Assembly: GCF_003258365.1 (NCBI RefSeq)
Contig: NZ_QHKM01000002.1
Span: 620,001-684,000 of the forward strand
Source: Hymenobacter edaphi
Lineage (GTDB): Bacteria > Bacteroidota > Bacteroidia > Cytophagales > Hymenobacteraceae
Length of the DNA stretch: 64,000 nucleotides
Reading direction: 5' to 3'
Within the stretch, counting starts at the first letter, position 1. Every line of letters starts with the position of its first letter. The notes below the pieces were generated by a model. It did no database searches. It was not told where the DNA came from and saw nothing but the letters and a program-made list of their open reading frames with translations. Position numbers and translations under genes: made by a program. Shown in pieces: positions 56,063 to 56,626 of the stretch.

Positions 56063-56157
56063 GATGAGGCTGAGAAAGAGGGTTGTGGACGTCGAAAACG
56101 ATGCAGGGAGGCCGCACGCCGGCCGAAAACGCCGCGTGCGCCGAAGGGGGCCGCGTA

Positions 56158-56184
56158 GCACCCGGCGCAATGCCAAACGGGTGC
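56158..56184 (-). other. Hairpin in the metY leader, distal
   Basis: GCACCCG/CGGGTGC 7-bp arms (56178-56184, 56158-56164) with a 13-nt loop, about 95 nt before the metY start. Could be part of an anti-/terminator or ribosome-access switch; no U-run. Confidence 0.4.
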
Positions 56185-56243
56185 GGCTAAGCCACGCGCC
56201 ACCCGGTGAGCGGGCAGCAAACAGGAAAACGGGGAAGGGTGGG

Positions 56244-56264
56244 GGCGGGCATCAGTGGCCCGCC
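56244..56264 (-). other. Hairpin just after poly-Cys frame
   Basis: GGCGGGC/GCCCGCC arms (56258-56264, 56244-56250) with a 7-nt loop, starting 8 nt past the poly-Cys stop codon. A ribosome stalled at the Cys codons would approach or mask this stem, the geometry of attenuators. The following sequence is C-rich, not U-rich. Confidence 0.5.
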
Positions 56265-56271
56265 GGGCGCA

Positions 56272-56430
56272 CTACCAACAACAGCAACAACACATCATAG
56301 CGCCGCGCATCGGCTGCGGGCGCATTCGGGCGCTACCAGCGGCGGGGGCGGCTACGGACAAACCGGTAGCGGGCGCCGCTGCGGGAAGCGGTGACAAATG
56401 ATGGTCGGACGTGAGGGGGTAGTGGCTCAT
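56272..56430 (-). CDS. Candidate poly-cysteine leader peptide of metY-metX-hom
   Basis: A frame ends MRGAMMCCCCCW-stop, with five consecutive Cys codons (TGT TGT TGC TGT TGT) right before Trp and TAG. Starts possible at 56430 (52 codons, MSHYPLTSDHHLSPLPAAAP...), 56325, 56310 or 56298; the 56430 ATG lies 10 nt after the riboswitch's last pairing base, with a purine-rich AGGAAGGGG upstream. Cys is rare and a five-run followed by stop, in the leader of a sulfur-amino-acid operon, is the classic form of an attenuation peptide that senses tRNA-Cys charging; similar poly-Cys frames are known from mycobacteria. No hydrophobic or enzymatic domain. Which start is used is unknown. Confidence 0.6.
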   Translation of the reverse strand: MSHYPLTSDHHLSPLPAAAPATGLSVAAPAAGSARMRPQPMRGAMMCCCCCW

Positions 56431-56439
56431 GGCACGCGG

Positions 56440-56557
56440 TTTATTTTTCCCCTTCCTGAAGTGGTCAGTGGGGCAGGATTTGGCACCTGCCGGCTTGTGC
56501 GTTGCCGGTGGTTGCCAGAGGGTCACGGAGCCTAGTCTCTCGCCTCTTCGGAATAAA
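56440..56557 (-). promoter_or_regulatory. SAM-I type riboswitch (S-box) controlling metY-metX-hom
   Basis: Minus strand reads TTTATTCCGAAGAGGC, GAGAGACTAGGCTCC, GTGACCCTCTGGCAACC, then an ACCGGC...GCCGGC hairpin (P3) and AGGTGCCAAATCCTGCC, then ACCACTTCAGG-AAGGGG and AAAAATAAA. This follows the SAM-I core (AGAGxGGxGAGGGAxxGGC, GCAACC, GGTGCxAA-TCC) with P1 formed by TTTATT/AATAAA and CC/GG. No expression-platform terminator with U-run is visible after it; switching may act on the poly-Cys frame or on downstream hairpins. Starts about 39 nt after the promoter's -7 box. Excellent fit with a Met biosynthesis operon. Confidence 0.9.
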
Positions 56558-56595
56558 TGCGTCAAAAAATCCTGCGCCGGTAGCAGCAGGTGGCA

Positions 56596-56626
56596 CAAAG
56601 GTAGCGCCGGTTATGTAAAACGCAAA
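56596..56626 (-). promoter_or_regulatory. Consensus promoter of metY-metX-hom leader
   Basis: TTTG (56626-56623), exactly 19 nt, TACCTTTG (56603-56596) on the minus strand, the textbook Bacteroidota promoter. Start of transcription expected near 56589, giving a leader of about 530 nt before metY. Confidence 0.88.

Follow-up and report, generated by a model that had tools for sequence, protein, structure and literature searches.

Analysis of the window, the whole stretch of 64,000 nucleotides of Hymenobacter edaphi DNA, identified a leader ahead of metY, metX and hom that joins a SAM-I riboswitch to a short open reading frame (uORF) ending in cysteine codons. This leader is reasonably likely to act as a two-input sulfur sensor, in which SAM would gate the uORF, the Cys codons would read charged tRNA-Cys, and Rho would provide the read-out. 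The reading is drawn from sequence comparison, namely the aptamer, its conserved P1 stem, the ORF located just after P1, the in-frame tail of sulfur residues and the sulfur genes downstream. An earlier note had proposed that SAM and charged tRNA-Cys might both be integrated here, and the sequence tests supported that idea through aptamer covariation, retained Cys codons, the frame and C-terminal clustering of those codons, and the genes that follow. Its view of the two elements as a tandem held in that both parts are present, but the arrangement is not merely tandem, as P1 overlaps the initiation region of the ORF. Two features go further than that note: Met codons are enriched as well as those for Cys, and the design is common to three of the genome's four SAM-I loci.

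All features of the leader were located on the minus strand. A putative -33 promoter element TTTG (56623..56626) was placed 19 nt before the -7 element TACCTTTG (56596..56603), which has the form TAnnTTTG; the -33 consensus and box spacing used for TTTG at 56626-56623 are those which we take to be typical of Bacteroidota promoters. A scan for E. coli-type promoters upstream of the aptamer gave no match. TAnnTTTG is given as the Bacteroidota promoter motif in the available excerpt of PMC9723704, and the consensus promoter claimed for this leader fits that type (TTTG, 19 nt, TACCTTTG) as judged from sequence. The same motif was present, no more than 70 nt ahead of the aptamer, in 109 of the 167 type-2 loci (defined below) with enough upstream sequence, against 4 of 167 after one shuffle.

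The SAM-I aptamer (56438..56559) is followed by the leader ORF (56272..56430; 52 aa, MSHYPLTSDHHLSPLPAAAPATGLSVAAPAAGSARMRPQPMRGAMMCCCCCW), whose likely start is the ATG at 56430-56428, 7 nt past the aptamer, and whose 52 codons end at TAG 56274-56272; a 108-aa frame at the same place is only this ORF continued upstream across the aptamer. The Cys codons, five in number (TGT TGT TGC TGT TGT, 56278..56292), are preceded by ATG ATG and followed by TGG TAG, so that the frame ending MMCCCCCW-stop reported ahead of metY-metX-hom was present at 56430-56272. The 5' strand of P1, ACGC-A-UUUAUU with its 4-bp extension, was assigned to 56552..56562 and the 3' strand, AAUAAA-CC-GCGU, to 56434..56445, both from the minimum-energy fold and a duplex prediction; the 3' strand covers uORF positions -15 to -4 and stops 3 nt short of the AUG. 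An untranslated C-rich spacer of 209 nt (56063..56271) separates the ORF from metY, and folding predicted in it the hairpins that had been described up to metY.

The first gene (54674..56062, start ATG 56062) encodes an O-acetylhomoserine sulfhydrylase-type enzyme (PF01053, Cys_Met_Meta_PP, E 2.3e-136), which we take from sequence motifs to be metY. It is followed by a likely homoserine O-acetyltransferase gene (53458..54492; PF00561, Abhydrolase_1, E 3.7e-17), presumably metX from its operon position and motifs, and by the homoserine dehydrogenase gene hom (52209..53480; PF00742, Homoserine_dh, E 1.9e-51); these three were among nine downstream proteins checked against Pfam. Over metY the nearest of the 19 named Hymenobacteraceae loci compared were Hymenobacter L260 (83.5% nucleotide identity over 1309 nt) and L288 (84.4% over 591 nt). 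A small gene for a LysM-like protein (domain assigned by reading) lies just upstream of the leader at 56933-57244 (-).

The RF00162 search suggested in the earlier note gave a single match in the whole window, at 56559-56438 (-), with 61.7 bits and E 6.7e-12 (cmscan; cut-off 44.4), and the SAM-I core motifs were present as that note had quoted them. The sub-type model R1 scored the aptamer at 75.1 bits, its training set including the window sequence. Lack of covariance support had been named as grounds for refutation, and such support was found: among 46 type-2 sequences, in a structure modelled with P4 left out, double changes occurred in 13 of 25 pairs, located in P1, P2 and P3 (5 of the 9 pairs of P1), and 96.3% of cells were paired compared with 86.2% after shuffling, with 0 of 500 shuffles as high. 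P1 of the window carries a compensated change, UA for AU, found in 3 of the 46. The stretch 56559-56438 is almost certainly a SAM-I aptamer. Six other aptamers (L002, L003, L012, L024, L029 and L051, from about 1501) apparently have no P4 and a long P1 (TGTTTTTATA/TATAAAAACA); they precede cysH, permease and ATP-grasp genes, and their leader ORFs start with GTG. Locus L236 has two type-2 aptamers close together in opposite directions (1045-1141 - and 1504-1620 +).

For the comparison, overlapping sets of 120 genomes from the family, 148 from the order and 296 from the phylum were scanned with RF00162, and matches were present in 119, 112 and 247 of them, respectively. The 219 loci taken (L001-L219), largely the best-scoring of a larger match set, were sorted by the P1 3' strand into 92 of type 2, with a UUUAUA..UAUAAA-like P1, and 127 others, mostly with the canonical CUUAUC..GAUAAG P1. 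A sequence pattern for the type-2 aptamer that made no demand on Cys codons was found in at least 118 stretches of named genome contigs, all 80 titles among the matches listed reading as Bacteroidota, and the covariance model R1, made from the 46 type-2 sequences, placed 119 aptamers in these stretches. The combined type-2 set held 211 sampled loci, and 205 non-redundant loci were left after removal of six that were duplicate or too short. Several Cys-uORF loci (L047, L058, L073, L079 and L080) were left among the others by the type-2 rule, and contrasts between type 2 and others are therefore conservative. The uORF was taken to start at the first ATG, or else GTG, in an interval running from 2 nt before the end of the aptamer to 22 nt after it. 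By this rule 181 of the 205 loci had a short ORF just after the aptamer (10-55 codons, median 37), 22 had no ATG or GTG start within that interval, and two, L167 and L305, had long frames of 263 and 308 codons at the uORF position. Two adjacent Cys residues (CC) occurred in the last 16 residues of 128 of the 181 uORFs.

Ribosomes of Bacteroidia, according to the available excerpt of PMC9976891, as a rule dispense with Shine-Dalgarno sequences; they prefer low structure, and A at -3, -6, -12 and -13. The 144 ATG-started uORFs had A at these positions in 55, 53, 76 and 65%, and the 37 GTG-started uORFs in 19, 22, 95 and 95%; the leader ORF of the window has no A at -3 or -6. With the spacing seen most often, P1 spans roughly positions -10 to -17 of the uORF, and by position the aptamer stem overlaps the region of uORF initiation. 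Folding showed that P1 can be extended towards the ATG in 8 of 8 metY leaders of the genus, least convincingly in L025, and that the extension ACGC/GCGU of the window reaches to 3 nt from the ATG. In the fold of the window leader, P1 was present in the minimum-energy structure and absent from the centroid, and the stability of the leader was not above that of shuffles (z -0.68). With SAM plentiful, the aptamer would be bound and P1 stabilised. As the 3' strand of P1 is the A-rich stretch at which the leader ORF is initiated, the ORF would then stay untranslated and metY-metX-hom expression would be low. From these sequence features we infer that SAM is likely to shut off translation of the leader ORF through a P1 gate. 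The excerpt of PMC2258182 describes a SAM-I arrangement in which the ribosome-binding site lies inside the 3' side of P1; the aptamer core is the same, but P1 here covers the start of a leader ORF and not that of a gene.

With SAM low, translation of the ORF would bring the ribosome to the Cys codons, joined by Met codons in relatives, right ahead of the stop. The last Cys codon was at most two codons from the stop in 116 of the 128 CC uORFs, and for this reason a pause for want of Cys-tRNA would leave the ribosome at the border of the spacer. Under a shortage of charged tRNA-Cys such a pause at the Cys codons, adjoining the spacer, would cover the start of the C-rich stretch and keep Rho off, so that transcription would reach metY, and with ample Cys the ribosome would leave and Rho would end transcription. 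In TnaC, a paused ribosome blocks Rho loading, and a TnaC-like block would be the best fit for the read-out. The sensing of Cys-tRNA by the leader is considered quite probable from the sequence; the direction of the response, with low Cys turning metY on, would follow from pathway logic; and Rho is put forward only tentatively as the effector, this being the least certain step.

Rho is encoded in the genome, and the spacers after type-2 uORFs had a C-over-G skew with a mean of 0.215 (above zero in 94% of 156), compared with 0.026 (above zero in 61% of 51) after type-1 or other aptamers. Elsewhere in type-2 loci the skew was 0.231 in the uORF body and 0.118 in the first part of the main gene (positive in 74%), so the spacer skew may partly be a general property. 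The terminator scan gave no match in the window spacer and two matches elsewhere on the same strand of the leader (shuffle mean 1.1), over the Cys codons and before the aptamer. An intrinsic terminator after the uORF was rejected, since a U-tract after the main post-uORF hairpin was found in only 13 of 124 loci and strict terminators in 2 of 211 type-2 loci compared with 11 of 127 others. A classical 1:2/2:3 attenuator looked promising by eye in L035, L069 and L244 and was not general. In pairing tests on 124 of the 128 Cys loci, the complementarity of the Cys run to the post-stop region had a mean z of -0.27 (15 of 124 below -1.5), and an RCARCA motif occurred in 11 of 124 loci against 9.2 expected. 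The leader has the short ORF with a codon run for the regulated amino acid that marks an attenuator; hairpins that exclude each other and lead to an intrinsic terminator were not found, and it is therefore not filed as a classical trp-type attenuator.

A translational read-out without Rho, in which ribosomes released from the uORF, or the unfolding of the spacer by a paused ribosome, would promote initiation at metY, is rather unlikely by our estimate and is the foremost alternative. It has precedents: the B12 riboswitch uORF of M. tuberculosis ppe2 works by termination-reinitiation, with Rho argued against (PMC11260477, available excerpt), and mycobacterial Cys-codon uORFs are said to be under translation attenuation (PMC13236596, available excerpt), a point against the Rho read-out. 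It also agrees with the excess of structure in post-uORF regions relative to shuffles (mean z -1.21; 47 of 124 below -1.5). When the Cys run was hidden, the start region became more accessible, by over 0.1, in 26 of 85 loci and less accessible in 8, a count made without a shuffled control. Against it, the median distance from the uORF stop to the main ATG was 146 nt (174 genes), which is long for simple reinitiation, and the Cys run showed no general complementarity to the main-gene start (mean z 0.11, 8 of 92 below -1.5); these two start-region tests covered 85 and 92 of the 124 loci, respectively. Pairing of the Cys run with the metY start region, suggested by a consensus fold of 8 genus leaders, was likewise not general; in that fold 7 of 51 pairs were compensated and 14 had a broken pair, the L368 row being about 46 nt too long with the metY ATG misplaced.

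The position of the ORF bears on whether the two controls are coupled at all. If they simply stood side by side, the peptide would sense charged tRNA and SAM would have a separate effect on the operon, such as the exposure or masking of a Rho site. Two poly-Cys ORFs lie directly after SAM-I aptamers with a different P1 (L339, ..ACCCR, and L360, ..STCCCCCC), which would suit such independence; judging by these two, the pairing of aptamer and Cys ORF may have arisen more than once. Cys-less leader ORFs after type-2 aptamers also agree with it. Such uncoupled control is nevertheless improbable, as uORF starts cluster at +6 to +12 nt past the aptamer (165 of 181) and as L167 and L305 open long frames at the uORF site, that of L167 reading as metX and beginning right after P1. 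Since the long frames begin there, the uORF start site is suggested to be the target of the switch, in agreement with the gated reading.

The ORF is very probably translated and under selection for sulfur codons, as judged from the composition of its end. The last 12 residues of the 181 uORFs contained 31.8% Cys and 9.7% Met, compared with 2.7% and 1.3% elsewhere in the ORFs. When residue order was shuffled within each ORF 2000 times, the 690 Cys observed in the last 12 residues compared with a permutation mean of 267 (maximum 306), and the 210 Met with a mean of 90 (maximum 117). Both Cys codons were used (TGT 485, TGC 259), and the amino acid is therefore what is kept across loci. Tails of CCC type were found in Hymenobacter, Pontibacter, Rufibacter, Chryseolinea, Pedobacter, Mucilaginibacter, Sphingobacterium and Haliscomenobacter, and in MAGs of Cyclobacteriaceae, Chitinophagales and Flavobacteriales. 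Among the uORFs lacking CC, tails with Met in its place were found in Ancylomarina (..VMRMQMMMRML), Psychroflexus (..AMMMSMYMRMRMQ) and Olivibacter (..MCMCMQ), and little or no sulfur tail in Algoriphagus, Spirosoma, Runella and one of two Dyadobacter. In 53 of 181 uORFs the last 16 residues held no CC, and in 16 of these 53 no Cys at all; with the 22 loci lacking a start this means that the Cys run is not universal; the sulfur-residue tail is widespread and not obligatory. The surveyed taxa are not independent, and over the 28 taxon labels of named loci the mean Cys plus Met count in the last 12 residues was 3.86, with only 15 of 28 reaching 3. Model R1, run on a draw of 40 genomes of the class, matched 25 genomes at E 1e-5 (31 matches); when the sequence after the aptamer was read at the 27 matches outside this genome, three more genomes (L338, L339 and L360) proved to carry an ORF with a Cys tail, and by this reading most genomes of the draw showed none.

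That the Cys-rich peptide is itself the product, binding metal or thiols, is very improbable: two uORFs have runs of at least 8 Cys, as might suit such a function, but most of the peptide varies, similar tails occur before unrelated genes, and Met can replace Cys (L224, L286). Chance or a TGY repeat in the DNA is scarcely credible, for although such repeats are common in the genome (TGYTGYTGYTGY has 280 occurrences on both strands of the 6.04-Mb genome, about 0.006 being expected per 260 nt of one strand), 122 of 124 TGY runs of at least 3 in the first 260 nt were in frame with the chosen start, and such runs occurred in 115 of the 211 type-2 loci and in 7 of the 127 others.

Within the genome, four SAM-I RNAs were found and a Cys-codon ORF followed three, namely the one before metY, one with the tail ..RCCCMPMRRACC before a gene for PAPS reductase, and one with the tail ..GCCCC before a gene for an amino-acid permease. 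The fourth locus, L001 (C21:26274-26389), whose downstream gene was read by motif as metH, had no Cys ORF; a downstream stretch complementary to its P1 5' strand (CTTTCTGGATAG) represents a different expression platform. Conservation of the Cys codons among relatives, on which the earlier note had staked its proposal, was borne out: CCCCCW was kept in 8 of 8 metY leaders of the genus, and the preceding 43-48 residues differed, most of all in L025. The 18-nt string coding for CCCCCW was also identical in DNA across these eight leaders, and selection on peptide and on RNA is therefore inseparable at the metY locus.

Main genes were found for 174 of the 181 uORFs and labelled by regular expression as metY (77), cysH (12), metX (11), permease (10), ATP-grasp (9), metH (4) and sulfite reductase (2), leaving 49 unclassed; several of these are wrong frames or further metY and metX genes that the expression did not recognise. 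A gene of the metY, metX, metH, cysH or sulfite reductase class thus followed in 106 of 174 cases. In named or nearby Hymenobacter-like loci (L238, L266, L269, L233, L279, L307 and L236), Cys- or Met-tailed ORFs were also seen by eye before TonB-dependent receptor-like starts, and these genes may have a role in uptake of sulfur compounds. Other downstream genes look by eye like those for ferredoxins, OsmC-like proteins, SsuD-like monooxygenase, MetF and aspartokinases (L170, L308, L326, L328, L315, L280, L235, L252 and L302).

Combined inputs are known from the Salmonella mgtA and mgtCBR leaders, where an ion or metabolite input is joined to amino-acid-rich short ORFs (Mg2+ and proline), in an architecture other than that found here. 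Poly-Cys leader ORFs of mycobacteria have reportedly been treated by Canestrari et al. 2020, a study cited in PMC13236596. In actinobacteria, poly-Cys ORFs have Cys codons near the stop, lie before sulfur genes and have no conserved terminator, with Rho weakly predicted (PMC1262725, available excerpt). The present ORFs resemble this mycobacterial/actinobacterial group in having Cys codons at the stop, a sulfur gene downstream and rare terminators, and differ in the Bacteroidota host, the SAM-I aptamer in front, the Met enrichment and the long spacer. The mycobacterial type is called leaderless in a title cited in PMC13236596, whereas the ORF here follows a 122-nt aptamer.

In M. tuberculosis ppe2, a B12 riboswitch controls a uORF whose translation the gene needs (PMC11260477). 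Both systems combine a riboswitch with a translated leader, and here gating is predicted, the aptamer stem overlapping the uORF initiation region by position; ppe2 differs in its ligand, in being a single gene and in its stop/start overlap, and the available excerpt mentions no amino-acid-sensing codon run. The SAM-I RNA of the Xanthomonas met operon also binds uncharged initiator tRNA (PMC7270179, available excerpt), so that one met leader likewise serves SAM and tRNA, but there the RNA binds the tRNA and here the sensor would be the translating ribosome. Within Bacteroidota, leader-peptide attenuation has been proposed in Flavobacterium psychrophilum, ahead of amino-acid operons, and in Bacteroides thetaiotaomicron, for one 5' UTR (PMC9723704, PMC7366714), with no mention of a SAM riboswitch or Cys run in the excerpts available. 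In the uORFC-8-2 leader, which belongs with a tRNA synthetase gene, two tandem Cys codons are conserved and there is a U-run like that of intrinsic terminators (PMC8632094); the tandem Cys codons are alike, and unlike here no riboswitch is mentioned in the excerpt. The words 'leader peptide' are absent from the main text of three comparative riboswitch papers (PMC2258182, PMC2211319 and PMC3766115), and no description of a SAM riboswitch paired with a poly-Cys leader was found, in Bacteroidota or elsewhere, in the open-access literature searched in part. Each component has precedent, and within that literature the combination appears new.

Taken across the phylum, it is fairly plausible that a composite cis-regulator has spread through Bacteroidota, in which P1 of a SAM-I sub-type would switch a fast-evolving leader ORF on or off, and translation of this ORF would gauge the supply of charged tRNA-Cys and tRNA-Met. 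AND/OR logic would then link the end product, SAM, and the building blocks, Cys and Met, in the control of an entire sulfur regulon (metY, metX, cysH, sulfite reductase and transporters). The recurrence of the design before sulfur genes in many Bacteroidota suggests one leader reading two sulfur signals. If true, it would be a natural two-input RNA device built of a riboswitch and a ribosome-based tRNA sensor, with more than a hundred natural variants on offer (the 128 CC-tailed uORFs), in a phylum whose ribosomes generally make no use of Shine-Dalgarno sequences, and it would suggest how many Bacteroidota may balance methionine and cysteine synthesis.
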